Positions 4,462 through 36,829 of a stretch of DNA of 41,052 bases are shown in pieces (position 1 is the first letter of the stretch; each line of letters opens with the position of its first letter). Where the stretch lies: the NCBI GenBank assembly GCA_017409405.1, contig JAFQSU010000083.1:1-41052 (forward strand), read 5' to 3'. The notes under the pieces are model-generated. The model did no database searches. It worked only from the letters and a program-made list of their open reading frames with translations, and was not told where the DNA came from. This DNA comes from Oscillospiraceae bacterium. GTDB lineage: Bacteria; Bacillota; Clostridia; Oscillospirales; JAAYXM01. The translations under genes and the position numbers were made by a program.

Positions 4462-7400
4462 ATGAAAAACAGGCGAGTTATATCTCTGCTTCTTGCGCTT
4501 TGCATGGTACTTTCATACATTCCGTCATCGCTTGCGGCAGACGGATTTGAGGGTGAAACCTACACATATGATTTCACATGCACGGCGCTGGGGCTTTCGT
4601 CGCAGGTTGCCCATCTCGCACAGACGAACACGACAACGGCGACAGACGGGCATTATTACACATCGCAGAATGCGTACAAAAATTCAAACAAGTGGGTGCT
4701 TGTTTCACGCAGAAGCGGATACAGCGGTTTTACACGTACCGTGTTTATGGACTTCACTCTGTCGAGTGCAGGAACGCTTCCGGCAGCAAACACAAATAAC
4801 GGCTTCATAATAAAGCTCAACGTTCCGACAACGGGCAAGTTTTCGCCGAGCCTTTCATACAACAAGCATGCAAAAGGTATGAAGCTTAAACTGTACCTCG
4901 TGCCGGTGGAGACCGAGGGGTTTGAAGCATCAAAGATTGCCCTTGCTCAGGAATCAACACCGTATGTTTCTACTGCTATTGACCTTGCAAAGGCAGCAGG
5001 GGATGCGTACTACCTCGGTGAGGTGGACACCTACACCAACGCTTCAGATTCCGTTCCGGCAACGCTCGCAACAAAGAATTTAAACGGTGGAGATTACTGG
5101 CTTATATGTGAGATGAGTGGGCTTAACTCTGCTCTTACCAAAGCCGATACATATACTGTTCAGCTTAAGAACTTTGTGCTCCGTGAGCTTCCGGGTATGA
5201 AGGTTACCTTTGAGAAGAACGCATATGTTCTTGGTGTTGGCGGCAGTGATACTGTTGTTGCCACTGCAAGCGATGATTCGGGCATCGTAAACGGTGCGGA
5301 GTTTGTATTTGAAAGCACTGATACATCTGTTGTGACTGTTGATGCAGACGGAAAAATAACGGCACACAAGGCAGGCAGTGCAAAAATCAAGGCTACCGTA
5401 AAGAGCACAAAGTACGCAGAAAGCGTGCAGGTCATAGTAAAGGCGGCAGGTGATACCGAGGTCGCAAATAATGAGTACAAGCTGCATTCGGGTGTTCTTA
5501 AAACTGATTTAAAAAACACTGTAATAAAATCAGATTATGCGGCAGCGCTCAATTACAACACGCTTGACACCACAACAGCACCGTGGGCGTACAACGCACA
5601 CGCAGGAACAACAACTTTTAACCTCACAAATACAAGGACGATGGTAGAGGTGAAGAGTGCTTCGCTCGGCAGTGCGTTTTATGCAGTTAAGGTGAGTGTC
5701 GCAAAGGGCGGACTCTATGATATGGATGTTTCGTTCCTTTCGCACAAGTGGGGTATAGGTGCAGATGTATATGTGTTCCCGACATCAGAAATTACCGGGA
5801 ACACCGTCAAGGTGGCTGACCTTACAGCCAAGACGCCTTGCGGAGATATCGACACCTACGCATCGGGCGGTAACGGAACGACCACTACGGCGACGGATTA
5901 TGTCGGCAGGGTTAACATCCCGGATGCAGGAGACTATTATGTTGTAATCTTCTTTAAATCAAATGCAGCCGGAGTATGGGATACTGCACGTTCATCGCAG
6001 TATGCATACCTTACGGGAATTACTCTGCGTGAAACCGCACCGTCCGTAACTGTGTCCTGCCTCGATTTGATTGAGGTAGGAACCCCTGCTTCCGTCAGTG
6101 CGGTAATGAAGGATATCGACGGAAACATAATAGCAGATGCAGAGATTACATATAAAAGCTCGGACGAGAGTGTTCTTTCTATTGAAAACGGAGTTGCAAC
6201 CGCACACAAAGAGGGCAACATTACAATAACGGCGACAGCCGTAGACAACGGCACGAAGCTTTCCGCAAAGGGAAGTGCGCCCGTTGAGATAATAGACCCC
6301 AATGTTGAACTGCCTGAGCACAATTATGTATTTACATATCATGCTCTTGGCGTAGACTCGCAGGTTTCTCAGGAGGGACATGTTCCGCTCGGCGATTATT
6401 ACAGTACCTTTGATACGTCAATATCGTCCAAATGGGCGTTTGCAGGAAGACGTGCAAGCTATCACGGCTATTTCAGAGACACCTACGCCGATTTCTCTCT
6501 GGCGGAATCCGACGTAGACAATCACGAAACAATGGCTCCGGGATTTTTGTTCAAGATTCAGGTGGAAAAGACCGGTATATATACACCGAAGCTTGAATAC
6601 AACATTCAGGATTTCGCACTGCGTGCGGATATGTATCTTGTTCCAGTAACCGAGGGCGGTATTTTTGCCCCCGAAAAGGTTATAGGTCACAGCAACCCTA
6701 ACGTTGCCGCTGCGGTAAAGGAGCTTCGCAGCAGTGACAAGTGGCACATAGGAACGGTTACTACATATTCCTCGAAGATTCCGGATGTGTATAAGAACGT
6801 ATACCTCAAAAAGGGGGACTATTTCCTCTTCTTTGTTCCCAATGGAAGCACGTATATGGGCTCAAGCGGCAGATATTATCTGTATCTGAGAAGCTTTTCA
6901 CTTAAGAACCCGACTGTTACCGTTGATGTGGAAGGAAAGGATTCTGTCGGTATCGGTGATGAAATGCAGCTCTCATGGACGGTAAGAGACCCTAAGGGCA
7001 ACATTATTCCTGATGCAGAGGTTACATTTGAAAGCTCTGATACAAAGGTTTTGCGCGTTGATGTCCAAACCGGTGCAGTTACGGGCGTTGACCTCGGAGA
7101 GGCAACCGTATACGCAAAAACGGTTATCGGCGATAAGGAGTATACGGGAAGTATAGATATTTCAACGTATGTTGTACAGTTTGGAAGCATCAAGGCAGAG
7201 GCCGCTCCCGTTGAGGTAGGACAGGGAAATGCAACGGAGATTGTTCTGACAGGATACCTTACCAACGGAGAGGAGACCGACATAAGCACAGCGAGAAAGG
7301 TGTTTAGCTCAAAAACACCCGAGATTGTCGAGGTTTCAGAAAACGGAATTGTCACTCCGCTTCGTGCAGGTAAGGGCGAGGTTGAGGTTGTTGTTATAAA

Positions 7401-10400
7401 AGACGGAATCGCCGCAACCACAACTGTCGAAATAACGGTCACGGACAGCAGCAAGCTTTCATCGCTCACACTTACGGGTGCCGATGAGGTAGGATATCTC
7501 CGTGATGCGACACTTACCCTTACTGGTGAAATGTCAAGCGGATATGGTGCAGACATAAGCGCTTTCGATGTTAAGTGGGAGCTTACCGCTGTGGAGAACG
7601 GCGAGGGTCAGGTAATTGACGGCGGAATCGTTCTCGAAGACGGCGGCAAAGTCTGCGGAATAACAAAGGGCGCGTGTGCAACCGTTTCTGCATATGTTGA
7701 TGTTGAGGGAAATATAATCCGTTCAAACACGATTAAAATTACCGTAGGCGAAACCGATCTTCGTGATTTCATGGTAAACTTCAAGGAGACGAAGGAAAGC
7801 AACCACAAGCTTATAAAGCTTGAAAACGAGGGCTGGGAAATCGACTATGCGAAGTCGTTTGCAAACATATCTCCGCAAATGTACAACTTCGGTATGTTTG
7901 TTCACACAAACGCACCGGGGCAGAAGCTTGTTATACGCATAGATGTTCCGTATACAGGCGTTTACAACGTTTCGTTCGACGGAAGAGCATACGGAATAGA
8001 GGGTGCGGAGGATATCGACATATATGTTGACGGAACATATGTCGGTGATTACGCGTTCTATGACAGAGGTCTTACGATAGCAGGTTCCGTTAAAAGCCTG
8101 CGTACGGTTTACCTTGAAAAGGGCGTACGTGAAGTAACCTTTGTTGTAGGAGATAAGAACGAAATTTCAGGAAACTACAGATTCATTCCGTCCACAATGC
8201 GTTTTGCGGCAAAGTACAGGATGCCTGCAATCCGTGAGATAATAACGGATAAGGAAGAAATAACCATAGCAAAGGGTGAGAGTGAGAATTTGGGAACAAA
8301 GCTTCTCACCGATGACGGTTTTGTTTACGAATGGGAAAAGGCTCTTGATGGAGAGGCAGACCCACTCACTGAGGTGACATATTCCGTAAACGATGAGGGA
8401 AAGGATGTTCTTTCAGTAGATGCTCTCGGCAACATAACTGCGCTTTCTGAGGGAGCTGCAACCGTAACCGTAACGGTTACATCAAATAAGGGCACGTCCG
8501 ATGTAACAACGAAGACGAAGGAAATTCCCGTCACGGTAGGAAGCGAAATTCCGACAGCGGATAAGGTGTTATCTGTCATTGAGATAACTCACGGTTCACT
8601 TGTTATGAGTCTTAAGAGTGATGGCATAACTCTCGGCTTTGCCGGAAAGAACAAGCTCGGCAACGAGGTTGCAATCCCCGATGGTGCAACCGTTGTATGG
8701 GAAAGCAAAAACGAAGATGCTGCTACCGTTTCTGGCGGAAAGGTAATACCGCACGGCTACGGCACGTCAGAAATTACGGTGTCGGTAACTCCTGACGGCG
8801 GTGAGACGATAGTGTCAAAGCCAATAACCGTATCTGTCAGAGAGGGAAAGACAAAGCGCACATATTATACTCAGAGCAAGGTGGATGCGGCGCAAGACAA
8901 TATCGGAAAGTACGACTGGGCGAAAAATATTCAGAAAGCGGCGGTTACGGCAGCTGATAATTATTTCGACAGAAGCCTTGATGAATGGTGGAAGATGATT
9001 CCGTCAAACGATATTCCGCGTGCTACAACCGTAGGAATGAGCGGAGACCCGGATGCATATATATGCCGTTACTGCAAAACCAATCTCAAGCAGGAATACA
9101 GCGTATATCCGTGGATTGTAGACCCGTTCAACAATCCGTGGAAGATACAGTGCCCTGAGTGTAAGCGACGCTTCCCGTCAAACGACTTTGCTTCGCTTTA
9201 CAATCTTGTTGTTGAGGAATACGGAGAATATAACGTAGAGCTTGCACACAAAATGAACGACGAAATTGTCGAAAAATCCGGCGGAAGTATTGACTATCTC
9301 AAAAACACGGCGTATCCCGAGGTCGGAAGCGCAGGTTCTCTCGTAAAGCTTACCGGCAAAGAAACCGTTGAAGGTTGGGGCGTTGACGACGGTCTCGGTT
9401 ATGATACCGGCAGAGTGTATTCAAACGGGACGAAAGAGATTCATACATATCTTGCATACTTTGTGCATTTCGGATACTGGTACAATTATGGGACAAACTC
9501 CGCTCAGATGATACAGGCAATAAACACTCTTGCAGATGCTTATATCTATACGGGCGATGAAAAGTACGGCAGACTCGGCGCAATTCTCGTTGACCGAATT
9601 GCAGACCTGTATCCCGACTATGAAATTGAGCCGTGGAAGAATCTCGGATATTACAATCAGGGCGGAGCGCGAGGCAAGATACTCTATAATATCTGGGAGT
9701 GTGCCCTTGCAGAAGATCTTGCAATTGCATACGATGCGCTATTCCCTGCATTTGACGATCCTGAGGTTATCGAGTTTGTTTCCGAAAAGGCGAACAGATA
9801 CGGATATACCGACAAGCTGACCGATGTTTCCGACGGTGAGGGTACGGTAAAGAAGGTAACGGGCGAGACTCTCAGAAGCAATGTTGAAAACAACTTCTTA
9901 AGAGAAATTTTCGACGCTGCCCAAAATTCAAAAATAAGAGGCAACTTCGGCTTCCACCAGTCTACCGTAGCGGCTGCAGGTGTTGTCCTTGACACGCAGC
10001 CGGATACAAATGCAATGCTCGACTGGGTGTTCAATAACGGAAGCTCGGGCGATACCTACAATACAGGCGGAAACATCAGTGAATCCTTGATTGATCTCGT
10101 ATCGCGCGACGGTCAGGGTAATGAATCCGCTCCGTCCTATAACAGAATATGGTTGACAGAGCTTGCAGCTCTTGCCGATATTCTTGCGGAATATGACGCC
10201 TATAAGGGCTTTGATATCTGGAATAATCCGAAGTACTTTACTATGTGGCGCTCATATAACCCGATGACGCTTGTAAGACGCGGCGTTGCTCCGATAGGTG
10301 ACTGTGGCCTCACGGGAAGCTTTGAAGCATATCCCGACAGCCCCGAAGGCTTGCTTGAGGCATACAGACATGCAAAAGAACTCCACGAGGACACTGCGGT

Positions 10401-13152
10401 TGAAATAGCACAGCTTTTCTATCAGCTACATACGCTCACCAACAAAGATGTCAAGGGAATCCATTATAATATATTTACCGAAAACCCTGAAAGCGTCGAG
10501 CAGGAGATAGAGGACATAATCGAAACACACGGAGAATATCCCGATTATGACAGAAGTTCAATGCTCACCGGCTACGGCTTTGCAGCACTTCGCGCAGGAA
10601 CTCTGCACGAAACGGTGGGTGCAGATGTAATCAGAGATACAACCCGTGACTTCTGGATGTATTTCGGAGGTGCTGCATCGCATTCACATTACGATACACT
10701 CAATATAGGCGTTGAAGCATACGGCATAAGTCTTTCTCCCGATAACGGATACCCCGAACAGACAGGACACGACCCGAACAGAGCACAGTGGACGAACCCG
10801 ACACTTTCCCATAACGCAGTTGTCGTGAATGAGGTGTCACAGCTTAAAAATCAGTTCCCGGCAAAGCCTCTGCATTATGACGGGAAAGACACACGCGTAA
10901 AGGTTATGGATGTCGATGCATCTGATACATATATTGAAACGGATGAGTATCGCAGAACTGTGGTAATGGTGGACTATGATGACGAAATTTCTTACGGTAT
11001 CGACTTCTTTAAGGTACGTGGCGGAAATGACCACCTGTACTCCTTCCATGCTGCAAGTGAAGAAGTGTTTGACTGCTCGGAGGAAATCGACTTCTTTGAA
11101 CAGCCGGGCGGTTCGTATGCAGGCATAGATGTTCCGTTTGGCAATGATCCGCAGACGAATCAGAGTTCGTCATATGTAAAGCTCAAATATCCGATAGGCT
11201 ACACATGGCTGTTTGATGTGCGGCGTGCAGACAATCCGGGACTTTCTGAGTTCTTCGTCGATTATAATATAATTGATATGCAGAACTATTCGCGGAACAA
11301 TAAAAAGATGGATATACATCTTCGCATGACCATGGTAAACGATTTTGAGCCTGACGAGATTACGCTTGCAAAGGGCTATCCTCCGCGCAAACCTAAGAAC
11401 CAACAGTATCTTGATTATATGCAGTATATGCTTGTGCGTCGTAAAGGCCGTGACCTTAACACTCTGTTTACGACAGTTATCGAGCCGTATAATAAAGAAC
11501 GCTATATAAAGGAAATTAAGCCTGCGACCGTAACCGCTTCTGAAGATACGGGAACGGACAAGGCATCTGCTGTCAAGGTTACGCTTGCCGATGGCAGAAT
11601 TGATTACATTGTATACGCTCAGAATAACGATATCACATATACCGTAACTGATAACGAAACGGGTTACAGCTTTGCCTTCTCCGGATTTGTCGGAGTGTGG
11701 ACGGTAAAACCCGACGGAAACGGCGGATATGTGAACGTATACAGCTACATAAACGATGGAACGACGATAGGCGAAGGCGAATTCCTTGTTGACGGAAAAA
11801 GCGCATCAATAAAAGGATGTGTTACAGATTTTACGGTAGAGCCTGCATTTGACAACTACATTGATGTGGAGTTTAACCGCACGCTCTCGGATGAAGAGGC
11901 ACAGAGCCTTGTTGACTGCATGATAAATGTCGAGTCTGAAGAACCGGGCAACGCTGCATACGTAATAAAAGACGTTCTCAACTTTAACGGTAACAGCGCT
12001 CGCCTTGATATAGGTGCAGTAACTACCGTGAACTCATATAAGGACAGGAGTAATATCAATGGTGGCTACAATTATGACATAGCTGCCGGGAAAGCCTTTG
12101 AGATTGCCCTCTCATATGAGGAGAACGGCGCACCTAAGCTTTCAGACCCCGGAAAGCAGAGTGTAACTGCAGGAAGCTCAATTGCGGTACAGCTTACAGC
12201 AACGTCTGATGACGGACCGATAATGTTTGAACCGCGTACAATACCGAGAGGTGCAAGCATTGATAGCAACACAGGCAAATTTACATGGAAGCCGGATGCA
12301 TCTCAGGTCGGAGATAACCTCGTAAGCATAGATGCTGTTGATGTGCTTGGCAGAAGAACTACACAACATTTCACCGTAACCGTTTACGGTGCAACAACCG
12401 GTTCACCATCACAGAGTGAGGACGGCACGGGTTCAACTGATACCACCGATACACCGTCCGGCGGCGGTGGTGGCGGAGGCGGCGGTGGCGGTGGTGCCGC
12501 ACCTGCCCCCGATACGGACGAAAATGTAGGAGACGATGATGAAAGCCTTCCCCTTGAGGAGAAGGTGCCGAGCGAAGGCGAGGCGGATGAGGTGGAAAAT
12601 GGCGACACGGCAAATATCCGATTCACTGACCTCGGAGACCACGCCTGGGCATCCGATGCAATCAACGAACTTGCGAAAGCAGGCATCATCAAGGGAACAA
12701 GTGAGACCATGTTCTCACCTGCTGCCAATATAACGAGAGCTGATTTTGCACTGCTTCTTGTCAGAGCGTTCAATCTTGAATCCGACAATACCGAAAACTT
12801 CGCAGACGTAAGCGAGACCGACTACTTTGCCGCTGAGCTTGCAATAGCCCGAAATACGGGAATAGTCGGCGGAATAGGTGATAACAAGTACGCACCGAGA
12901 AGCACCATAACCCGTCAGGACATGATGGTAATAGTATACCGAGCTTTGACAAAGCTTGGAATGGAGTTTGCAATAGAAGAGGTTGATTATCCTGATATTG
13001 AAGCTGTTGCACCGTACGCAAAGGATGCGGTCAAAGCGCTTATAACGGCAGGCTTAGTCAACGGCAAAAACGGACTTGTCGAACCTGCAACATACACAAC
13101 CCGTGCAGAGGTTGCAGTACTTGTCAAAAGAATACTGGACTATGTAAACTAA
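4462..13152 (+). CDS. Giant cell-wall-anchored heparinase II/III-type polysaccharide lyase, 2896 aa
   Basis: A signal peptide (MKNRRVISLLLALCMVLSYI, then PSSLAA) is preceded by AAAGGAG. Residues 30 to about 1450 hold three type A or A-like modules (about 35-250, 340-525, 617-815) alternating with Big_2-like Ig domains, then a CBM-like segment (about 1105-1260) and more Ig domains. The lyase occupies about 1475-2540. It has a four-cysteine ribbon, CRYC at 1535-1538 and CPEC at 1564-1567 followed by FPSND; the motif NESAPSYN near 1894; HSHYD at 2074-2078; and SHN at 2116-2118. The H-x-H-x-D plus HN pattern is the heparinase II/III hallmark. A putative-Ig domain (about 2555-2650, WKPDASQ) leads to a 12-glycine and acidic linker, then three SLH domains (2719-2896) that bind secondary cell-wall polymer. 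It probably cleaves a uronate-containing polysaccharide by beta-elimination at the cell surface. The substrate is not deducible. Confidence 0.9.
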   Translation: MKNRRVISLLLALCMVLSYIPSSLAADGFEGETYTYDFTCTALGLSSQVAHLAQTNTTTATDGHYYTSQNAYKNSNKWVLVSRRSGYSGFTRTVFMDFTLSSAGTLPAANTNNGFIIKLNVPTTGKFSPSLSYNKHAKGMKLKLYLVPVETEGFEASKIALAQESTPYVSTAIDLAKAAGDAYYLGEVDTYTNASDSVPATLATKNLNGGDYWLICEMSGLNSALTKADTYTVQLKNFVLRELPGMKVTFEKNAYVLGVGGSDTVVATASDDSGIVNGAEFVFESTDTSVVTVDADGKITAHKAGSAKIKATVKSTKYAESVQVIVKAAGDTEVANNEYKLHSGVLKTDLKNTVIKSDYAAALNYNTLDTTTAPWAYNAHAGTTTFNLTNTRTMVEVKSASLGSAFYAVKVSVAKGGLYDMDVSFLSHKWGIGADVYVFPTSEITGNTVKVADLTAKTPCGDIDTYASGGNGTTTTATDYVGRVNIPDAGDYYVVIFFKSNAAGVWDTARSSQYAYLTGITLRETAPSVTVSCLDLIEVGTPASVSAVMKDIDGNIIADAEITYKSSDESVLSIENGVATAHKEGNITITATAVDNGTKLSAKGSAPVEIIDPNVELPEHNYVFTYHALGVDSQVSQEGHVPLGDYYSTFDTSISSKWAFAGRRASYHGYFRDTYADFSLAESDVDNHETMAPGFLFKIQVEKTGIYTPKLEYNIQDFALRADMYLVPVTEGGIFAPEKVIGHSNPNVAAAVKELRSSDKWHIGTVTTYSSKIPDVYKNVYLKKGDYFLFFVPNGSTYMGSSGRYYLYLRSFSLKNPTVTVDVEGKDSVGIGDEMQLSWTVRDPKGNIIPDAEVTFESSDTKVLRVDVQTGAVTGVDLGEATVYAKTVIGDKEYTGSIDISTYVVQFGSIKAEAAPVEVGQGNATEIVLTGYLTNGEETDISTARKVFSSKTPEIVEVSENGIVTPLRAGKGEVEVVVIKDGIAATTTVEITVTDSSKLSSLTLTGADEVGYLRDATLTLTGEMSSGYGADISAFDVKWELTAVENGEGQVIDGGIVLEDGGKVCGITKGACATVSAYVDVEGNIIRSNTIKITVGETDLRDFMVNFKETKESNHKLIKLENEGWEIDYAKSFANISPQMYNFGMFVHTNAPGQKLVIRIDVPYTGVYNVSFDGRAYGIEGAEDIDIYVDGTYVGDYAFYDRGLTIAGSVKSLRTVYLEKGVREVTFVVGDKNEISGNYRFIPSTMRFAAKYRMPAIREIITDKEEITIAKGESENLGTKLLTDDGFVYEWEKALDGEADPLTEVTYSVNDEGKDVLSVDALGNITALSEGAATVTVTVTSNKGTSDVTTKTKEIPVTVGSEIPTADKVLSVIEITHGSLVMSLKSDGITLGFAGKNKLGNEVAIPDGATVVWESKNEDAATVSGGKVIPHGYGTSEITVSVTPDGGETIVSKPITVSVREGKTKRTYYTQSKVDAAQDNIGKYDWAKNIQKAAVTAADNYFDRSLDEWWKMIPSNDIPRATTVGMSGDPDAYICRYCKTNLKQEYSVYPWIVDPFNNPWKIQCPECKRRFPSNDFASLYNLVVEEYGEYNVELAHKMNDEIVEKSGGSIDYLKNTAYPEVGSAGSLVKLTGKETVEGWGVDDGLGYDTGRVYSNGTKEIHTYLAYFVHFGYWYNYGTNSAQMIQAINTLADAYIYTGDEKYGRLGAILVDRIADLYPDYEIEPWKNLGYYNQGGARGKILYNIWECALAEDLAIAYDALFPAFDDPEVIEFVSEKANRYGYTDKLTDVSDGEGTVKKVTGETLRSNVENNFLREIFDAAQNSKIRGNFGFHQSTVAAAGVVLDTQPDTNAMLDWVFNNGSSGDTYNTGGNISESLIDLVSRDGQGNESAPSYNRIWLTELAALADILAEYDAYKGFDIWNNPKYFTMWRSYNPMTLVRRGVAPIGDCGLTGSFEAYPDSPEGLLEAYRHAKELHEDTAVEIAQLFYQLHTLTNKDVKGIHYNIFTENPESVEQEIEDIIETHGEYPDYDRSSMLTGYGFAALRAGTLHETVGADVIRDTTRDFWMYFGGAASHSHYDTLNIGVEAYGISLSPDNGYPEQTGHDPNRAQWTNPTLSHNAVVVNEVSQLKNQFPAKPLHYDGKDTRVKVMDVDASDTYIETDEYRRTVVMVDYDDEISYGIDFFKVRGGNDHLYSFHAASEEVFDCSEEIDFFEQPGGSYAGIDVPFGNDPQTNQSSSYVKLKYPIGYTWLFDVRRADNPGLSEFFVDYNIIDMQNYSRNNKKMDIHLRMTMVNDFEPDEITLAKGYPPRKPKNQQYLDYMQYMLVRRKGRDLNTLFTTVIEPYNKERYIKEIKPATVTASEDTGTDKASAVKVTLADGRIDYIVYAQNNDITYTVTDNETGYSFAFSGFVGVWTVKPDGNGGYVNVYSYINDGTTIGEGEFLVDGKSASIKGCVTDFTVEPAFDNYIDVEFNRTLSDEEAQSLVDCMINVESEEPGNAAYVIKDVLNFNGNSARLDIGAVTTVNSYKDRSNINGGYNYDIAAGKAFEIALSYEENGAPKLSDPGKQSVTAGSSIAVQLTATSDDGPIMFEPRTIPRGASIDSNTGKFTWKPDASQVGDNLVSIDAVDVLGRRTTQHFTVTVYGATTGSPSQSEDGTGSTDTTDTPSGGGGGGGGGGGGAAPAPDTDENVGDDDESLPLEEKVPSEGEADEVENGDTANIRFTDLGDHAWASDAINELAKAGIIKGTSETMFSPAANITRADFALLLVRAFNLESDNTENFADVSETDYFAAELAIARNTGIVGGIGDNKYAPRSTITRQDMMVIVYRALTKLGMEFAIEEVDYPDIEAVAPYAKDAVKALITAGLVNGKNGLVEPATYTTRAEVAVLVKRILDYVN
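12460..12495 (+). repeat. Poly-glycine coding tract in giant lyase 1
   Basis: Twelve consecutive glycine codons (GGC/GGT/GGA) form a simple GGN repeat between the Ig-like domain and the SLH region. The 3607-aa lyase has eleven at 36140-36172. Repeats of this kind can change length by slippage, which would change the spacer between the enzyme and the wall. Confidence 0.85.
12541..12595. repeat. Intergenic-type palindromic repeat embedded in the linker of giant lyase 1
   Basis: The minus strand reads CCACCTCATCCGCCTCGCCT, then TCGCTCGGCACCTTCTCC, then TCAAGGGGAAGGC. This is the look of the short palindromic repeats found between genes in gut Clostridia. Here it lies inside the reading frame and encodes LPLEEKVPSEGEADEVE. 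A nearly identical block sits at the same place in the second lyase (36215-36269). That it is a genome-wide repeat is inferred from memory of such sequences. Confidence 0.5.
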
Positions 13153-25952: not shown

Positions 25953-26005
25953 ATACAGAAATCCGCTCGCTGAATTAAATGGCACGACTTACCAAGGAGG
26001 TATAT

Positions 26006-29000
26006 ATGAAAAAAAGAATTTTATCTTTGATACTTTCGGTTTGTATGCTCGTCTCGCTTCTGCCGATAAACGCTCTTGCGGCGGTTGTTCCCGAGTCTGC
26101 ACCGATAGTTCCGATTGAATATGATATATCGACAAATGCGCTTACCGAAGCGGCAAAAGCGACTAAGTACGATAACAACACGCTCGGTCTTGTCAGCTGG
26201 CTTGCAAAGGGCAGTGCAGAAGCGGCGACTCTCGATGTGCCGGCAAAAACTGCTGCATATCAGATGACGAACCGCATCGGCAGTATGAAGGATAACAGCC
26301 CGACACTTCTTGAAAAGGGCTTTTCATCGCAGTTTGTTGTCGATGCATGGAGTGATGTAGGAGGAACTCCGACCTTCTCAAACCATGCAGACCATTCAAA
26401 CTACACGAAGGGTCTTATAGTATACGGCGTCCGTCTTAAGGTTCCGGCAGGAAAATACACACTTTCATTAAAAAACGACTTTGCAATCGGTGATGTTGCA
26501 AACACCTTCAAGTCAAACGGTGCTTTCACCAAGGGCGCGGTTACCAAGGTGTATTTCGGCAAGGCAGAAACTAATGCATCTTCATCGTCAGAGGCTTTCT
26601 CTGCCGCAAAGGCAGTTGTCAGCGAAGACAACTACCTCGGCTGGTACAGCTCTATGGATTTGTCACAGACAACATCCTATGCAAAAGAGCTTACGGTTTC
26701 GGAAGACGGAGAGTATTTCGTGACATTCGTGGCAGATGCCGACAGCCTTACGAAGAATGGCGACTGCTATTTCAGAGATACGGGCTGGGCATTCCAGCAG
26801 TTTTATCTCTCCGGCATCACCCTCACTCCCGTTCCTCCGGAAGGATATATCCTCTATGATGAGGCAAACTACGACATTACGTCAGGTGCGCTTACAGATA
26901 CGGCACTTACGGATCACGGTGCAGGTGCAAGCTTTGACGGAAATGAGCTCAGTAAGGTCAGTTGGCTTGCAAAGGGAAGTGTTGCAAATGCCGCACTTGA
27001 CCTTACAAAGACTGACGGCTATGAGCTTGAAGCCCGTAAAGGCGGCTCGACTGATACAAGTCTTACACTGGGTAACCTTGGCTTTAACGGCAGATTTATA
27101 AGCGAATGGCGTGACAAGGATGCAACTACGGGAGCGATAAGTGAACCGACAAACGGATATTGTCGTGAAGAATCTCCGTATGTCTATGGAATTAAAATAA
27201 ACGTTCCGAATGACGGTGAATACACACTCTCACTTAAAAACAACTACACGTCCGACGATATCGACAACTCATATAAGGTAAAAGGTAAGTTTGCGCGCGG
27301 TGTTGCCGCAAAGGTAACACTTACAAGAGTACAGCCGGCTGATGTTGCGACCTCGGCAGCACTCGGACAGGCAGCAACGAACCTACAAATTAAAAACGCA
27401 CTTGCGGCTTCTTCAAGCACGCACGAGCTTGGCTGGTACGACTCTACAAAGCTTGCGATAGATGAGAATACGCCGTATATAACAGATTTTGACAAGAAGT
27501 TAAAGCTTTCTGCAGGTGAATATTTCGTAGTCTTTGAAGCAAACACCGAAAGTCTTGAAATCAATCCCGAAGAGCTTACTGTCAATGATCAGGCAAAGGC
27601 ACAGTTCTTCTGTGTTTCGGGCATTTCGCTCCGCAGTGCTCTTCCGAAGGCATATTCGGGATATACTGCGGTCTATGACCTTACGTCTGCAAGCGACTTT
27701 AAGACCGCGACATATGAAAAGACTAACAACCTCTGGCAATTTGCAGGTACAGATGCGGATAACGCTTCTTTCACCACGGGTACAAACTCCGTTTCGTTTG
27801 ATATCGGCACGGAAAGTTTTGCTGAGGTTGAAATCAACGTCCCGGTAAAGGGAAGATACAGAATAAACTTAAGCCACGAAAAGGCAGACCTCGGAGCGGT
27901 AGGCGCTGTGTATATCAACGGCGAAAAGCTCGGCACGGTTGACTACTCAAAGGCAAGCGGCGACAATTACGTTGGCACCTATGAGTTTGAGTCTGCCGGC
28001 AAGTATAAGGTTAAATTTAAGGCAGAGGGCGGCATCGGAACGGCACAGACCCCCGGCACGCTTACTCTCTACGGTGGTGGAAAGCGCGCACTTGTAAATG
28101 CAGAGCTTTCGCTTTCTGACAATGTTCTCTCCGTTTCGAGAGCATGGCTTTCCGACGGCAGTGAAGCTGATGCTTCAAAGCTTTCTGTAAAGTACAGTAT
28201 TGACGGTACGGCATCTGCTGAAATTGACAAGAACACGGGCGTTATTACGCCGAAGGTCAACAGTGAATTCACAACGCTCTATGCAACGATTTCGCTTGAT
28301 GGAGTTTCAGTTGACTGTGAGCTTTATGCAAATGTTGTTAAAGACTTGCCCGAGTCGATGAAGGGGAATATTGACACCATTGTATACAACATCACGTCTG
28401 ACGTTCTCTGGAGTGGTGCTTTGGGCACCGACAACAGCGGAGATGATGAAACTAAGGACGCATACGACACTCAGACTGCAGACGACCTCATATCTAACAA
28501 CGAGCTCGGATATATAAGCTGGCTTGCAAGACTCAAAAACCCTGAGCCGGCGCTCGATCTCACAAAGACGGCTCCGTATCAGCTCGGATACCGTCTCGGC
28601 GGATCGGTTGACAACAGCCCGGCACTTTATGTAGAAGGTTTTGTTTCACAGTTTGTCGTAAAGCAGTGGAATCCCGGCGATGACATTACTACGGCGGAGC
28701 CCATACGCGACAACTACGGCACAAAAAACAAAATTTTATATTCAATCCGCCTTAAGGTGGACGAGCCGGGCAAATATAAGCTCGCACTTAAAAACAGCTT
28801 CACGAAGGACAGCACAAGGATTCACACGACCTTCAGAACTGACGGCGAGTTTACAAAGGGCGCAGTTACGCAGGTACACTTTGCAAAGGCAAAGGATGCC
28901 GCGGCGGACAATGCATACACGACTCCGGCAAAGGCGGCAGAATCCCTTGACGAAAACGCAGTCACACTCGGTTGGTACGACAGCCGAAGACTTGCACAGA

Positions 29001-32000
29001 ACGCAAACACTCCTGCAGTAACCGAGTTTGACACTGTTCTCGACATTGCCGAGGCAGGGGAGTATTACGTCTACTTTGAGGGCAATAACGAAAGCCTTGA
29101 GAAAAACTCCGATGTATACTACAGAAATGATGGAAACAATAACTCATGGTTTCAGCAGTTCATGCTTTCGGGCATTGAACTTGTGCCTGTACTTCCGACA
29201 GGATACTCCGGCTCGACTGCGGTATATGACCTTACTGTCAGCGATGTCTTTGAAAATGCAACGTATGATAATACGGGTAAGTTCTGGGCATTTAAGGGAA
29301 CGGATGCGCAGAGTGCGGTCTATAACGTGAGCGAAAATGCTGTTTCCTTTGATGTCGGAACTGATGCTTACACAGCGGTAGAAATCAACATTCCGGCAAG
29401 CGGTAAATACAGAGTCGGTCTTGACTATGCTACAAGCCCGGACGGCGGTGTCGGTGCGGTTTATGTTCTTGACCCGGGAACTTCTGACATTGCCGCATCC
29501 CTTTCGGACTCAACAGAGCTTGGTGCAGTTAACTACCATGCTCCGCAAAAAGGAACGGGAACAACGGTTCTTGGTGAATACAGCTTTACAGTGCCCGGAA
29601 AATACATCGTTGTATTCAAGTATAAGAGCGGCACAGGTACACTTCAGTCACCTAAAACAATCACACTTGACGGCGGCGACAGTAGTGACGTGCTCATGGA
29701 TATTGAACTCAACCTTTACGGCGAACAGATTGTTGTAAACGGCATTCTTACAGACGGAACTGATGCAAACCTCACAAACGCTGACATCACCTACAGAATT
29801 TCTGACGGGGCATCCGCAACCGTTGATTCGCTTACAGGTGTTGTCACACCGGTGCTTGAAAGTGAAGATACAACCGTTTGGGCGGAGGTTACGCTTGACG
29901 GTATGAGTCTTAAAAAAGAGCTTGCGGTAAAAATCAAAAAGACCGAATACTCAAAATACACGCTCACATACGATTTTGCAACCGTTGACGGTGTGACGGA
30001 CGGCCACAAGATTACCTATGGCGACACGATGCGCTTCTGGGAATTTGAAGCTGAAAACGGTGATTTTGCAATAAGCAAGCAGAGCTACGGTTTGCGTGCC
30101 GATGCAGTTCCCGGAAACTGGTTTGCACTGAAGTTTTACGTTCCTGCAGTGGGAACATACCATACCGAGCTTCTTCGCTCCACCGCGTCATACGGCGGCG
30201 ACAGTGAGATGTACGTCCTTCCGGCAGGCGCGGACATTGAGTCAGCAATAAACGGTGGAAGTGCAAAATATCTCGGCGAGATAAAGTCATATTCAGCTAT
30301 GTTTGGTGAGAACACACTGCAGCTTCTTGACAATATCACGTTTGATACAATAGGAGAATATATCGTGGTATTCCGCTCAACAGATGTAGGCGGCAAGGGA
30401 CAGTCAAGCATCATGCCCGGAAAATTAAGCTTTGTCGGCGGTGGAAATCCGGCACTTACAAGTGTTATCACCGATCTTGATGAGGTTGTTGTAAACGTTG
30501 GCGCAAGCAGAGTTCTCACGGTTATTCAGAGTATGCAGTCTGACTATGTAGCGGCATTTGAAAGTGCATATGACGTTACATTTGAAATAGAGAACACGGA
30601 TATCGCAAAGGTATATGATGACGGAACTGTCGCAGGCCTTGCGGTGGGAGAGACTACACTCACCGTTACTGCTGTTATGGGAGATACGGTAGCAGTTAAG
30701 AGTCATAAGGTAAAGGTGCTTCCTCGCGGCTATGCAGGCTACACCTTAAAGTATGATTTTGCAAATGTGCCCGTATTTGAAGAAACAACCTATGAAAGCA
30801 CGCACAATTTCTGGCAGTACTACGGCTCGGATGCCGACTGGACGGCTGTTGAGGTAAATATTCCCGAAGCAGGTAAATATGCACTAAGCACAGATGCAGG
30901 CTTTAGCGGTGAAATTTACATAGGCACAACGGTTGACAATGTTCAGGCTGTCAGCGGTGAATGCGCATTTGCGACAGCAGGAAGCTATCTTGTTATGTTT
31001 AAAAACTCCGGTGGGGCAGTGCCCGAAACGCTGACGCTTTACGGTGGTGACGGCGCAGTCCTCATGGGTGTCGACGTTGCATATGCAGATTATATGGCTT
31101 ACGTTTCAAACGCATACATGTCCGACGGCACAAGTCTTGATGTGACAAAGGCTGACATAATGTACAGCATTGCTGACTTTGAAAAGGGTGCTGTAATAAG
31201 CGAAAACGGTAAGGTATTCCTTGCTGACGGAGGAAAGACCTCCATTTTCGCCGACGTCACCTATGAAGGAAAAACAGTTCGAGGTGAGGTTTCGGTTGAC
31301 CTTCCGGCGGCAGACCCTGATACCATGAAGGCAAGCGGTGAGTCGGTTCTCTACAACCTTGTAAAGAGAAGCACAAGCTGGCAGGGACATAACGGAAACA
31401 AGACATACATCGGATATATAACCTATGATATGACCGACGGGAACTGGGAATGGTACATGACCGATAAATCAAACCCCACAACCATGGCTTATTCCTCCCC
31501 TCGCGTTGATATTACAGGAAACGAGCGTCTTGAAATCAATCTTGATGCAAACAACTGGCTTGCACTTAAGATCAAGGTTCCGGCAGAAGGCCGTTATTGG
31601 ATAAACGAAAAGTCCAGCCGTACATCAAGATTAAAATCATTGTATATTGACACAGGTAAGCTGTTCTTTATTCCGGTAGGTGCAAGTATTGAGGAAATTG
31701 AAGCTTCACTCACGCCTGAGACAATGGCAGGTAAGATATCATATCTTGATAACTCACTTGATGCGTGGACAGTTGTGTCTGAAGATTTAGGCTCGGTATA
31801 CTTCCCTGAAGCAGGCGAATACCTTATGGTATATCAGGAAGCACTCGGCCTCAATGCAAAGCGCGTAGAGCCGATTGACGTATCGCTCGACGGTACAAAC
31901 CGTGTCCGCTTCCTTGATATTGAGGTTGATGGCGGAAGCGAGCTTGCGGCAGGCAGTGAGGCAGACCTCGCTATCCGCGCAAGGCTTCTTGACGGCACGC

Positions 32001-35000: not shown

Positions 35001-36829
35001 ATCCGCTTGATGAGGTCGCACTGACAAGCGGTTATGTTCAGAACAGTTCTCATGAAACCACTCCCGGAGTTATGCCTGAAACCTTTGAATACGTCCTTGC
35101 AAGACGTAAAGGAACAAATCTTGACACCCTCTACACAACGGTCTTTGAACCGTATAGGAACAACCGCTATCTTACAGAAATGTCAGACGTTCCGGTAGAA
35201 ATGTCACCGTCAAGCACGGCAAGCGAGGGTAAAGATGACATAGCTAAGGCTGTAAAGGTAGTTCGCACAGACGGACGTGTTGACTATATCGTCTATGCGA
35301 CAAACAACAATGTTCTGTATACCGTAACGGATAGCGAGAACGGAATAAGCTTCAATTTCCGTGGGTTTGTCGGAGTTTACAGCGTAAACGCAGACAAGAA
35401 GAACATATATAGCTATGTAAATGACGGTGATATTATCTGTAATACTGCAGATATGCAGAGCTACACACCGCATGACTACAAGGCATATACCGGCACTGTT
35501 GATAGCTTCACAAAAGAGCTTTCATGGGAAAACAAGATATATGTAAAGACAAGTGATACTGTTGACACATCAAAGATTATCGGCAATGCAGTGTATGTAA
35601 ACAACGACGGAGTACAGAGTGGTGCATACATGATAAAGGATGCAGTGCAGAACGGAGATATTCTTGAACTTGATATAGGAACTGTTTCAGCTATAAGAAG
35701 TTATGCGGATGTTAACGACTTTGACAAGGGTTATGTGTATAACATAGGCATAGGTCAGGGTGTTACTATTCCGATATCAAATATTGAGGATTATGGGCCT
35801 CGGTTTGATAAGGCGTATGCTGAAGAAGACTTTACTGCGACTGCAGGAAGCACATTCACAACAACAATCAGTGCAATGGCTGAAGATCTTGCAAAAGTAA
35901 GCTATTATGGTACAAATATCCCGAGAGGAGCAACTGTTGACGAGAACACGGGAAAGGTGACATGGAAGCCTGATGCAAGTCAGACGGGCAACAATCACTT
36001 CCAGATAACGGCGCGTGACGAGTACGGACGTGAGAACACCGAGAGCTTTATCGTAACCGTCTACGGATCAACGACAGGTTCACCGTCAACGGGTAATGAT
36101 AGCACGGATTCAACCGAAACTCCGTCAGGAGACACCTCCGGCGGTGGCGGCGGTGGAGGTGGCGGCGGTGGCGCCGCACCTGCCCCCGATACGGACGAAA
36201 ATGTAGGGGATGATGAAGGCCTTCTCCCTGAGGAGAAGGTGCCGAGCGAAGGTGAGGCGGATGAGGCGGAAAATGGCGATACAACAAACCTCCGCTTCAC
36301 CGACCTTGGCTCCCACGCCTGGGCAGAGGATGCAATTAACGAGCTTGCAGAAAAGGGCATCATCAAGGGAACAAGTGATACCACCTTCTCACCGTCTGCC
36401 AATATCACACGAGCAGATTTTGCACTGCTTCTCGTCCGCGCATTTGACCTTAAGTCGGACAACAACGAAAACTTTGCAGATGTTTCGGCTTCTGATTACT
36501 TCGCAGCCGAGCTTGCAATAGCACGAAATACAGGCATTGTCGGCGGTATAGGTGATAACAAGTATGCACCGCGCAACACTATAACCCGTCAGGATATGAT
36601 GGTAATAGTATATCGCGCATTGCAGAAACTTGGTGTAGAACTTGAAATCGCAGATGTTGATTATGAGGATTTTGCAGATGTTGCAGACTATGCACAGGAT
36701 GCAGTAAAAGCACTCATAACGAGCGGTCTTGTAAACGGTAAGAACGGTAAAATAGCTCCGACCGACTATACGACTCGTGCAGAGGTTGCAGTATTGCTTA
36801 AACGCATGCTTGACTACACAGCAAAATAA
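26006..36829 (+). CDS. Giant cell-wall-anchored heparinase II/III-type polysaccharide lyase, 3607 aa
   Basis: I start it at 26006, with AAGGAGG 5 bases upstream; an in-frame ATG at 25979 has no ribosome site and would spoil the signal peptide (MKKRILSLILSVCMLVSLLP, then INALAA). Type B modules lie at about 35-285, 286-550 and 790-1070. They alternate with beta-sandwich units beginning AVYDLT or LKYDFA and with Big_2-like Ig domains up to about 2160. The lyase spans about 2175-3260: cysteine ribbon CHYC (2225-2228) and CPDC (2251-2254), NESSPSYH (Y2602, H2603), HTHKD (2776-2780) and SHN (2818-2820). Next come a putative-Ig domain with WKPDASQ, an 11-glycine and acidic linker, and three SLH domains (3428-3607). 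It should be wall-bound and cleave an acidic polysaccharide by beta-elimination. It parallels the 2896-aa lyase but carries mostly unrelated N-terminal modules, so it probably binds a different glycan or glycan region. Confidence 0.9.
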   Translation: MKKRILSLILSVCMLVSLLPINALAAVVPESAPIVPIEYDISTNALTEAAKATKYDNNTLGLVSWLAKGSAEAATLDVPAKTAAYQMTNRIGSMKDNSPTLLEKGFSSQFVVDAWSDVGGTPTFSNHADHSNYTKGLIVYGVRLKVPAGKYTLSLKNDFAIGDVANTFKSNGAFTKGAVTKVYFGKAETNASSSSEAFSAAKAVVSEDNYLGWYSSMDLSQTTSYAKELTVSEDGEYFVTFVADADSLTKNGDCYFRDTGWAFQQFYLSGITLTPVPPEGYILYDEANYDITSGALTDTALTDHGAGASFDGNELSKVSWLAKGSVANAALDLTKTDGYELEARKGGSTDTSLTLGNLGFNGRFISEWRDKDATTGAISEPTNGYCREESPYVYGIKINVPNDGEYTLSLKNNYTSDDIDNSYKVKGKFARGVAAKVTLTRVQPADVATSAALGQAATNLQIKNALAASSSTHELGWYDSTKLAIDENTPYITDFDKKLKLSAGEYFVVFEANTESLEINPEELTVNDQAKAQFFCVSGISLRSALPKAYSGYTAVYDLTSASDFKTATYEKTNNLWQFAGTDADNASFTTGTNSVSFDIGTESFAEVEINVPVKGRYRINLSHEKADLGAVGAVYINGEKLGTVDYSKASGDNYVGTYEFESAGKYKVKFKAEGGIGTAQTPGTLTLYGGGKRALVNAELSLSDNVLSVSRAWLSDGSEADASKLSVKYSIDGTASAEIDKNTGVITPKVNSEFTTLYATISLDGVSVDCELYANVVKDLPESMKGNIDTIVYNITSDVLWSGALGTDNSGDDETKDAYDTQTADDLISNNELGYISWLARLKNPEPALDLTKTAPYQLGYRLGGSVDNSPALYVEGFVSQFVVKQWNPGDDITTAEPIRDNYGTKNKILYSIRLKVDEPGKYKLALKNSFTKDSTRIHTTFRTDGEFTKGAVTQVHFAKAKDAAADNAYTTPAKAAESLDENAVTLGWYDSRRLAQNANTPAVTEFDTVLDIAEAGEYYVYFEGNNESLEKNSDVYYRNDGNNNSWFQQFMLSGIELVPVLPTGYSGSTAVYDLTVSDVFENATYDNTGKFWAFKGTDAQSAVYNVSENAVSFDVGTDAYTAVEINIPASGKYRVGLDYATSPDGGVGAVYVLDPGTSDIAASLSDSTELGAVNYHAPQKGTGTTVLGEYSFTVPGKYIVVFKYKSGTGTLQSPKTITLDGGDSSDVLMDIELNLYGEQIVVNGILTDGTDANLTNADITYRISDGASATVDSLTGVVTPVLESEDTTVWAEVTLDGMSLKKELAVKIKKTEYSKYTLTYDFATVDGVTDGHKITYGDTMRFWEFEAENGDFAISKQSYGLRADAVPGNWFALKFYVPAVGTYHTELLRSTASYGGDSEMYVLPAGADIESAINGGSAKYLGEIKSYSAMFGENTLQLLDNITFDTIGEYIVVFRSTDVGGKGQSSIMPGKLSFVGGGNPALTSVITDLDEVVVNVGASRVLTVIQSMQSDYVAAFESAYDVTFEIENTDIAKVYDDGTVAGLAVGETTLTVTAVMGDTVAVKSHKVKVLPRGYAGYTLKYDFANVPVFEETTYESTHNFWQYYGSDADWTAVEVNIPEAGKYALSTDAGFSGEIYIGTTVDNVQAVSGECAFATAGSYLVMFKNSGGAVPETLTLYGGDGAVLMGVDVAYADYMAYVSNAYMSDGTSLDVTKADIMYSIADFEKGAVISENGKVFLADGGKTSIFADVTYEGKTVRGEVSVDLPAADPDTMKASGESVLYNLVKRSTSWQGHNGNKTYIGYITYDMTDGNWEWYMTDKSNPTTMAYSSPRVDITGNERLEINLDANNWLALKIKVPAEGRYWINEKSSRTSRLKSLYIDTGKLFFIPVGASIEEIEASLTPETMAGKISYLDNSLDAWTVVSEDLGSVYFPEAGEYLMVYQEALGLNAKRVEPIDVSLDGTNRVRFLDIEVDGGSELAAGSEADLAIRARLLDGTLIDGADATDVTYKWSSSDESVAKVSDGKLVAVGDGTALITLEAVYPDNVTVKTVERINVIESATVVGIEIVGDKMGFVDRYIPLSVNLVFDTGTTKALTGTAVMYAAEGDGADVKGNSVSSSKPGTIKVSASAIYQGAEYNTETPLEIEFKAHTMKSEPSYYTYDRLAALRENAEKYDWVQSQIKSAKKSGDTALENFDRIYEMLIPEGLPRATRPALREDPEYNLCHYCGANVSMFGDFTMNMYTNPWKIQCPDCRRNFPSNDFGSFYKIGLDEHGYFDVTRARERHHNMLTHGSLDAVCDCVDIPIEEKSDAWYDFYGYGDPNGYLYNEAYTELWADSSKDTYNKDPYKGVEVDGARWGVDDGWGYDTGRIHPNGVAEVHTYIATYLYVGAVNEVNYAIRNLARAYAYTGEEKYGIQGAILLDRLADVYPDYSTHLFFDKGFATGGGGTAYGKVKGTIGDSSYIMYPLEAADAFFPLLVNENETLLKALQEKAKEFNLENPKTTGEHVWQNWADGIVRETFRAAKSADIYGNVGYQERAVSLAILVLNSKPESDEMAEWLFATGGRITRDDGTYYCPGGNLGAMIMNVLDRDGNGNESSPSYHSGWVPMLQSCAEYLNMYTDDPKYNLFKNPKFAQLFISQIPLVLVDDHTAQIGDTGSPADNEIQLSASSSAFMELKDTPLGNIIAEELYRENGYTAEGLRYDMFTHDPERLEREVLERIDLGDGILRESTMLTGYGFAVLRDGAENGDKNTATYTNNMRDWWIYFGSNQHQMSHTHKDTLNLGFEAYGLNMAPDLGYPEATGANLNRFQWIRQTISHNTVTVNETAQIYNQRKLGPMHFDDSGDIKLMDIDGHMAYDATDIYRRTLVSVNVGADVSYAVDFFRVKGGHDHIYSFHSQSDEIYETVGLDNIEYQTDNGRADGNYIGSYAGADVKFGDDPSLSSSKFTYPGGYTWMKNVRRDTSGVSSFTVDFNVTDFRKVLKDGKDLHLRMTMLNDGYPLDEVALTSGYVQNSSHETTPGVMPETFEYVLARRKGTNLDTLYTTVFEPYRNNRYLTEMSDVPVEMSPSSTASEGKDDIAKAVKVVRTDGRVDYIVYATNNNVLYTVTDSENGISFNFRGFVGVYSVNADKKNIYSYVNDGDIICNTADMQSYTPHDYKAYTGTVDSFTKELSWENKIYVKTSDTVDTSKIIGNAVYVNNDGVQSGAYMIKDAVQNGDILELDIGTVSAIRSYADVNDFDKGYVYNIGIGQGVTIPISNIEDYGPRFDKAYAEEDFTATAGSTFTTTISAMAEDLAKVSYYGTNIPRGATVDENTGKVTWKPDASQTGNNHFQITARDEYGRENTESFIVTVYGSTTGSPSTGNDSTDSTETPSGDTSGGGGGGGGGGGAAPAPDTDENVGDDEGLLPEEKVPSEGEADEAENGDTTNLRFTDLGSHAWAEDAINELAEKGIIKGTSDTTFSPSANITRADFALLLVRAFDLKSDNNENFADVSASDYFAAELAIARNTGIVGGIGDNKYAPRNTITRQDMMVIVYRALQKLGVELEIADVDYEDFADVADYAQDAVKALITSGLVNGKNGKIAPTDYTTRAEVAVLLKRMLDYTAK
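36140..36172 (+). repeat. Poly-glycine coding tract in giant lyase 2
   Basis: Eleven glycine codons in a row sit at the same place as the twelve in giant lyase 1 (12460-12495). Confidence 0.85.
36215..36269. repeat. Intergenic-type palindromic repeat embedded in the linker of giant lyase 2
   Basis: The DNA (CCTTCTCCCTGAGGAGAAGG, then TGCCGAGCGAAGG) is nearly identical to 12541-12595 and encodes LLPEEKVPSEGEADEAE. The part CCTTCTCCCTGAGGAGAAGG is itself an inverted repeat. Confidence 0.5.

Follow-up and report, generated by a model that had tools for sequence, protein, structure and literature searches.

The question raised by this locus is whether a short palindromic repeat of the intergenic kind has become protein linker in the surface lyases that carry it. 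The window, by which we mean the whole stretch of 41,052 nucleotides analyzed here from an Oscillospiraceae bacterium, was first read from sequence alone; that first-pass annotation placed a palindromic block in frame in the linker preceding the SLH domains at 12541, with a second copy near 36215-36269, and described it as present in both lyases. These claims held: the block spans 12541-12597 and its second copy 36215-36268, both lie before the SLH domains, and "both lyases" is correct because both genes encode SLH proteins with a heparinase II/III-like C-terminal domain. Table 1 lists the features; slot 1 is the linker before SLH1 and slot 2 the linker between SLH2 and SLH3. The pattern GAAGGTGCCGAGCGN{0,12}GGCGGATGAGG has two matches in the window (12561-12592 and 36235-36266) with 0 expected from 100 shuffles. 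Because slot 1 is of low complexity, it is not possible to say exactly where the inserted block begins and ends.

Table 1. Positions in the window of the two SLH-anchored lyase genes and their linker features.
Feature	Position	Strand	Remarks
SLH-anchored lyase gene 1, 2896 aa	4462..13152	+	Big_2, Hepar_II_III_C, He_PIG, three SLH
Captured module A in linker slot 1 of lyase 1, read as ESLPLEEKVPSEGEADEVE	12541..12597	+	In frame; elsewhere the genome has 5 more SLH copies, near-identical, and 7 diverged ones
Module A hairpin head, near-palindrome CCTTCCCCTTGAGGAGAAGG	12546..12565	+	Lyase 1
Module A directional tail GGCGGATGAGG	12582..12592	+	Lyase 1
Lyase 1 anchor, three SLH domains	12622..13149	+	
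Lyase 1 linker slot 2 (SLH2-SLH3), without captured repeat, TKLGMEFAIEEVD	12949..12987	+	Position computed from ungapped anchor
SLH-anchored lyase gene 2, 3616 aa	25979..36829	+	
Captured module A in linker slot 1 of lyase 2, read as EGLLPEEKVPSEGEADEA	36215..36268	+	
Module A hairpin head, near-palindrome CCTTCTCCCTGAGGAGAAGG	36220..36239	+	Lyase 2
Lyase 2 anchor, three SLH domains	36296..36820	+	
Lyase 2 linker slot 2, without captured repeat, QKLGVELEIADVD	36623..36661	+	Position computed from anchor

The annotation took the block, here called module A, for a captured intergenic repeat, a reading to be refuted if the genome held no other copies or if homologues encoded the same residues with dissimilar codons. 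Neither condition refuted it, and capture is supported: other copies were found, mostly outside genes, and sister species encode the same residues with nearly identical DNA. A genome-wide blastn search with a 72 nt query gave 32 matches at E ≤ 10, of which six are in SLH linkers at 93-100% identity (the two of the window and four more linkers), seven are outside recognisable genes at 82-89% over 48-58 nt (E 5e-16 to 1e-7), and the remaining 19 are shorter. One non-coding copy (L013), read in the frame of the window, gives LPLEGKVPRDEADEVE. An ORF of at least 70 aa spans 8 of the 18 non-SLH copies of modules A, B, and C examined, and a Pfam search of the four longest of these ORFs (101-258 aa; shorter ones were not included) found no family. 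Module A is present in 19 of 117 genomes of the order and in 12 of 73 genera, other families included; of the 59 relatives, 13 gave SLH anchor matches at E ≤ 1e-25. Its units are about 30-60 nt, as are those of B and C, and some non-coding copies are parts of longer composite palindromes. The composite units resemble inverted pairs. Two other origins were tried and rejected: cmscan of six loci at E ≤ 1 matched no known RNA family, and no match was found in the phage collection.

The annotation had missed other, unrelated repeats captured in these linkers. Across 129 SLH anchors from four congeneric genomes, at least three unrelated repeats are present in slot 1, slot 2, and the C-terminus taken together. 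Two of these repeats are read in more than one frame, and a nested 84-nt element lies inside some of them. Module A encodes peptides of the type SLPLEEK... (slots 1 and 2) or KMPSPRGEGG... (slot 2), while module C gives PPLPKGRGTVEDGGGI, ASLALKGGGPSNDGGGI, or VQREGDRSAVEG depending on the frame. Since near-identical DNA encodes different peptides, protein-level convergence is ruled out as the cause. The module B copy that occupies slot 2 in G000:C38 shares 98% identity with the one at C89:7773-7818 over a length of 46 nt (E 1.5e-16), and module C also occurs in another genus (G006). By our reading of the sequence, the C89 copy adjoins a gene start, just upstream of it. Coding copies of A, B, and C were found only in SLH anchors, apart from those of B in RAYT-like genes. 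The stop codons of modules A and C are consistent with insertion of DNA: the consensus TGA of module A is CGA in the frame where TGA would stop; the consensus TAA of module C has been displaced from the frame by one additional base in the six slot-2 copies of G003 read in frame 0, and serves as the actual stop codon in four genes ending ..YKASLA*. One G004 copy with the nested element (L375) meets a stop soon afterwards, near a contig end, so capture may sometimes cost SLH3.

These data show that coding and non-coding copies share their identity, that they are read in different frames and retained in frame, and that a palindromic repeat can be both intergenic and in frame within ORFs while homologues without the insert exist in slot 2. 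Capture of mobile non-coding palindromes as linker protein, from several unrelated repeats and in several frames, is very probably the correct explanation; that the direction was from intergenic DNA to gene is inferred. Chance or low-complexity resemblance could be invoked because the linker is compositionally biased (poly-Gly, acidic), but this is practically excluded by the E values of the non-SLH module A copies and of module B, and by near-identical DNA in different frames. It could also be argued that the repeats arose in SLH genes and that the intergenic copies escaped from coding DNA, as the most similar set of copies in the genome is in SLH linkers. However, the non-coding copies are more diverse, form part of larger composite palindromes, and are present in other families of the order; module B falls within a family of GTAG palindromes and module C extends to G006. 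We regard such an escape as very unlikely.

The counts of captured anchors are limited by how the anchors were sampled. We used 54 of 59 tallied matches in G003 (only the 59 best candidates were scored and more may exist), 31 of 47 in G004, and 15 of 57 in G001, the last hand-picked with a leaning to longer spans; 17 anchors were added via repeat searches and 12 kept, and loci L054, L350, L365, L372, L384, and L388 are absent from the set. With this bias the 65 captured anchors among 129 are not a prevalence. Less biased values for slot 2, by the motif rule, are 12/17 (G000), 21/54 (G003), and 14/31 (G004). By the same rule slot 2 lacks a capture in 64 of the 129; three of these (L204, L243, and L214), missed by the rule, look captured by eye and all three are in the captured hairpin group below. 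Anchors cut by contig ends were labelled by re-reading rows, and the search pattern for module C missed 2 of 10 copies (L127 and L342). For the SLH anchor tree, L204 and L243 were relabelled captured, and 127 of 129 anchors were taken, omitting two with weak right halves. Resolution of this tree is poor, with 6 of its 124 branches starred, and thus independent captures cannot be counted. The labels change 50 times on it, against a mean of 61 when shuffled; either many separate events or shuffling between paralogues would fit these numbers.

Captured linkers retain hairpins in their DNA beyond what synonymous recoding leaves (z -2.8 vs. -0.46). Counted linker by linker, the hairpin exceeds that of synonymous recodings in 82% of the 68 slot-2 linkers with capture, compared with 15% of control windows and 9% of the 43 linkers without. 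The captured group was picked by DNA match to palindromic modules, therefore the excess, which is shown, confirms retention and is not a discovery. In the window, the copy at 36215 is clearly beyond recoding (4 of 500 recodings as low), the copy at 12541 only weakly so (47 of 500). A 14-aa slot-2 form, VGFGIYDEP, looked by eye like an old GTAG palindrome; it was not counted as captured because, over 18 anchors, its hairpin does not exceed recoding (z -0.42, 6% at p ≤ 0.05). The excess could mean that the linker DNA persists because of what it does as nucleic acid, either as an mRNA hairpin pacing translation or folding between domains or as a recombination hotspot that shuffles SLH anchors among catalytic parts, with the peptide incidental. 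In favor of this are the hairpins themselves, the single orientation described below though both are open, the weak tie between insert type and the flanking SLH tree, as recombination would give, and the near-identical 72-nt blocks common to paralogues. Against it, about half of the anchors are without capture and have no excess of hairpins in their slots, a young palindromic insert will form a hairpin even if it has no function, and a pN/pS near 1 measures no DNA-level constraint. We consider such a role unlikely.

The annotation had further proposed that the block serves as an acidic spacer, a plausible role that has not been demonstrated. Taken as a whole, slot 1 is acidic, with a mean net charge of -9.3 across 60 residues, while the net charge of slot 2 is the same with capture (-2.15) and without (-2.11), which argues against selection for acidity there. 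Between genomes, the slot-1 block of 20 anchors has pS 0.096 and pN 0.086, a ratio near 1, and it evolves almost neutrally. Structure models give pLDDT <50 for slot 1 and for the captured stretch of slot 2, and the slot-1 block is predicted to be disordered. No reverse copy of the directional marks occurs in the 129 anchors, even though reverse frames are open in 21/21 (A), 19/21 (B), and 15/24 (C) and forward frames in 8, 13, and 12, respectively. Purely neutral insertion does not predict a single orientation. It is the support for positive selection on the peptides, whereby forward frames would suit wall anchoring, since reverse frames are open as often or more. But one and the same slot is served by several unrelated peptides, the charge of slot 2 does not differ with capture, and pN/pS is near 1, so this explanation too appears unlikely.

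We return to capture as a tolerated spacer, the likeliest role of these linkers, with spacer function inferred. In the mechanism we propose, module A, a small intergenic palindrome, would have inserted in frame into the poly-glycine, acidic linker that precedes the SLH domains in an ancestral surface lyase. It may then have spread among paralogues via gene duplication and gene conversion, a spread that is inferred, and would persist as an almost neutral, disordered spacer. SLH linkers of this family tolerate and accumulate repeats, of at least three unrelated kinds in slot 1, slot 2, and the C-terminus taken together, sometimes with a nested second element.

The annotation cited the Rickettsia palindromic element (RPE) as a known case of coding capture. 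The kind is indeed already known, from RPE and intragenic REPs, and the present case is an unusually rich new variant. RPEs are palindromic repeats that occur both in intergenic DNA and, in frame, inside protein genes, where the extra peptide is tolerated (PMC2229807), and the same trait of intergenic and in-frame coding copies is found here. RPEs, however, are 105-146 bp and occur in many different conserved proteins of Rickettsia, whereas the present units of about 30-60 nt, several of them unrelated in sequence, are crowded into the same linkers of one paralogous surface-protein family of Oscillospiraceae/Clostridia MAGs; no RPE sequence was compared. ERIC/RU-1 and the 107 bp Correia MITEs are likewise small and mobile, and their open frames have become fused to ORFs (PMC2229807), in enterobacterial and Neisseria hosts unlike the one here, and their sequences were not compared either. 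We found no report of palindromic repeat capture in Clostridia in the literature searched. The case for palindrome capture has so far rested largely on isolated insertions found here and there, most of all in Rickettsia. The present gene family supplies dozens of parallel examples next to sisters without capture, with several repeat families, several frames, nested insertions, and stop-codon hazards and uses, so that neutral, selected, or element-driven capture can be compared.

Mobilisation of the repeats is inferred, and a candidate exists for one kind only. Module B, which begins with GTAG, and its variants have this tetranucleotide joined to a palindrome; neither GTAG nor CGTC tags are present in modules A and C, which also lack a candidate mobiliser. 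Intragenic REPs and REP-supplied stop codons have been reported for GTAG REPs, whose RAYT genes are flanked by GTAG repeats (PMC3733652). The likeness to such REPtrons lies in the GTAG palindrome of module B and the presence of Y1/RAYT-like genes, and we infer that the GTAG kind is mobilised by a RAYT-type transposase. PF01797 (RAYT-type transposase) was found in 4 of 5 genomes searched, and the match to NF047646 REP_Tyr_transpos has E 3e-18 at 66 bits against a cut-off of 80; no RAYT-like match was found in G003, G004, and G006, all of which carry these repeats. A module B query gave 37 matches at E ≤ 10 in its own genome, coding ones included, where the criterion for GTAG REPs is >100 per genome. 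In G001, three lyase linkers have captured a palindrome that agrees with the one inside the genome's own RAYT gene at 25 of 26 positions, the best of 21 RAYT genes; in the genome of the window, module B matches the own RAYT palindrome at 22-23/26, which is not always the best match. A bolder reading, no more than possible at present, is that SLH linkers in this genus are a standing landing site for REP-type elements, where RAYTs, with the matching inverted GTAG pair inside their own genes, would seed genome-specific palindromes that continually give new linker peptides. In a REPtron the GTAG REPs flank the RAYT gene. Here, 23 of 27 scored RAYT-like genes of the order have an inverted GTAG pair of the module B kind within their own reading frame, and the two halves of this inverted pair change together. 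This raises the question of how a RAYT would recognise the gene that encodes it, or be regulated by that gene.

Both SLH-anchored lyase genes of the window encode surface proteins that combine Ig-like domains and a heparinase II/III-like C-terminal domain with three SLH domains at the C-terminus (the anchor), and in both a poly-glycine/acidic linker with a block of module A lies before the SLH domains (table below). At the DNA level, module A, one of three unrelated short palindromic repeats (A, B and C), has CCTTCCCCTTGAGGAGAAGG as its hairpin head and GGCGGATGAGG as its directional tail.

Table. Window genes, their module A blocks and the loci of a nested element
Feature	Position or loci	Description
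Lyase gene 1	4462-13152	surface protein, 2896 aa
Module A block, lyase 1 linker	12541-12597	ESLPLEEKVPSEGEADEVE
Lyase gene 2	25979-36829	surface protein, 3616 aa
Module A block, lyase 2 linker	36215-36268	EGLLPEEKVPSEGEADEA
~84-nt element	L371, L374, L376, L378-L386, L390-L393; L373	congeneric genomes G003 and G004; L373 in G006, another genus

When a 72-nt query was searched against the own genome (G000; 1.94 Mb, 87.8% complete, with the window as contig C78), we obtained 32 matches at E<=10. Six lie in SLH linkers (C78 twice, C73, C82, C51 and C84), seven are full-length copies outside SLH linkers with 82-89% identity, and the remaining 19 are shorter. The seven copies are embedded in mosaics of small palindromes, and several of them belong to composites of ~120-130 nt in which the copy makes up one half and the other repeats the head in inverse orientation; the copy at C54:3609, read in the window's frame, gives LPLEGKVPRDEADEVE. 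An ORF of at least 70 aa spans 8 of the 18 non-SLH copies of A, B or C examined and none spans the other 10. The four longest of these ORFs, at 101-258 aa, returned no match in a Pfam search. A further repeat that is common between genes, with GATTCTTCGACTGCGCTCAGAATGACA as its type, adjoins modules A, B and C at L014, L068, L071, L077 and other intergenic loci of this genome.

The window anchor has 18 matches in the own genome at 68-100% identity and three more, truncated at contig ends, at 64-67%, and linker content varies among these anchors. Slot 1, the linker before SLH1, carries module A or a form of module B (VGEGVPALPS), or lacks both. Slot 2, between SLH2 and SLH3, reads LGVELEIADVD or similar without a captured (in-frame) repeat, VGEGLSALPxTDEV with module B, KMPSPRGEGGPLAVDEV with module A in another frame, and VQREGDRSAVEGL with module C. 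Non-coding counterparts were found for module B (C89:7773-7818, 98% over 46 nt) and module C (C89:12011-12064, 89% over 54 nt; C82:2533, 87%).

Of 59 relatives, 13 have anchor matches at E<=1e-25; the congeneric genomes G001, G003 and G004 contain 57, at least 59 (scored matches only) and 47, respectively. SLH-anchored proteins are thus much expanded in these ruminant-gut genomes, with ~47-59 or more close anchor copies each versus ~19 in G000. We extracted 129 anchors (17 from G000, 62 from G003, 35 from G004 and 15 from G001), and by a DNA motif rule 65 of them have a captured repeat in slot 2, a selective sample and not a prevalence. In a scan of the named genomes (80 loci), all insertions of at least 5 aa relative to the 176-aa anchor fall after query residues 109-123, i.e., in slot 2. 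The head of module A is found in two frames among the anchors; the head and the tail of module C are each read in two frames, hence three different peptides, PPLPKGRGTVEDGGGI, ASLALKGGGPSNDGGGI and ASLVQREEDRHTAVEGL. Three G001 genes (L252, L253 and L256) have a further slot-2 form, KIEKRNDTQVV(P/S)Y, that matched no module.

Stop codons are present in some of these frames. The module A consensus has TGA in the KMPSPRG frame, where captured copies have CGA. The module C consensus has TAA in the ASLA frame, and each of the six frame-0 slot-2 copies in G003 carries one additional base; this base is already found in one non-coding copy (L362), so such variants exist outside genes too. In four G003 SLH genes (L165, L198, L202 and L212) module C supplies the last residues (..YKASLA) and the TAA stop.

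In 10 of the 129 anchors, the A or C hairpin harbours a nested element of ~84 nt, itself with a GATAGTCCGGTGGACTATC hairpin, and linkers there reach up to 57 aa. It is nested in A and C both intergenically and in SLH linkers; by our reading, 8 of the 24 places that hold it are non-coding composites and all others are anchors, intact or truncated at a contig end. At L375 (G004:C98:28543-28637), slot 2 has A plus the nested element, and the anchor's frame then soon meets a stop close to the contig end, with possible loss of SLH3.

Hairpin energy was compared with 100 synonymous recodings using the codon usage of the anchors themselves. Captured slot 2 (n=68) gave a hairpin z of -2.81 with 82% at p<=0.05, versus -0.46 and 15% for control windows taken within these SLH domains and -0.12 and 9% for uncaptured slot 2 (n=43). 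For the slot-1 module A block (20 anchors), pN/pS (ratio of means) was 0.90 between genomes, 1.24 within G000 and 0.76 within G003. Directional marks in anchors are all forward (0 reverse); the reverse strand of non-coding copies is open at least as often as the forward. In structure models built from a 27-row alignment, the window anchor has a mean pLDDT of 68.6 with residues 1-15 and 17-68 below 50, and in the C73 anchor residues 175-183, inside the captured stretch, are below 50; such low pLDDT is consistent with a flexible spacer without proving it. In the anchor tree 6 of 124 branches are starred, with 50 changes versus a shuffled mean of 61; this tree is too weak for counting capture events.

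The best-supported mechanism, which we consider likely, has four steps: small palindromic repeats would insert into SLH linkers; in-frame insertions would survive, as proposed here, because SLH3 has to stay in frame; captured copies would then spread along with paralogues; and the captured peptides would drift almost neutrally as spacers. Among 117 genomes of the order, 19 contain module A. A mobiliser, the REP-type transposase RAYT, is proposed for module B only; none has been identified for A and C.

In-frame palindromic repeats within proteins have a precedent in Rickettsia, and in-frame MITEs in enterobacteria and Neisseria (PMC2229807). Intragenic GTAG and CGTC REPs and stop codons supplied by REPs have also been described, as have two Xanthomonas species whose recB genes carry different REPs at nearly the same position, and tolerance of REPs by linkers has been suggested (PMC3733652); the section of that paper bearing on it lists Proteobacteria, Cyanobacteria, Chloroflexi and the PVC group as carriers of GTAG repeats. 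As far as the literature searched shows, the new features are the accumulation of several kinds of unrelated repeat in the same linkers, their reading in more than one frame, the nesting, and an inverted GTAG pair within RAYT-like ORFs, whereas the RAYT genes reported in that paper have GTAG repeats on their flanks (PMC3733652).

RAYT-driven capture of module B is plausible, though not shown, from the following observations. Module B starts with GTAG, and a PF01797 gene of the own genome (C73:180-656) holds it twice inside the ORF, once per orientation. RAYT-like genes were found in 18 of 117 genomes of the order (30 loci, 27 scorable, L421-L447), and 23 of the 27 have two GTAG palindromes inside the ORF, one forward and one reverse, each at its own fixed position. 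Over 20 variable bases, the paired palindromes agree at 17.0/20 within a gene versus 7.9/20 between genomes, a within-gene agreement reached by 0 of 10,000 permutations. Finally, GTAGGGCGTGCCGCCCCCGGCACGCC, the palindrome captured in slot 2 of three G001 lyases (L251, L257 and L258), matches the palindrome of the G001 RAYT gene L436 at 25/26 bases.
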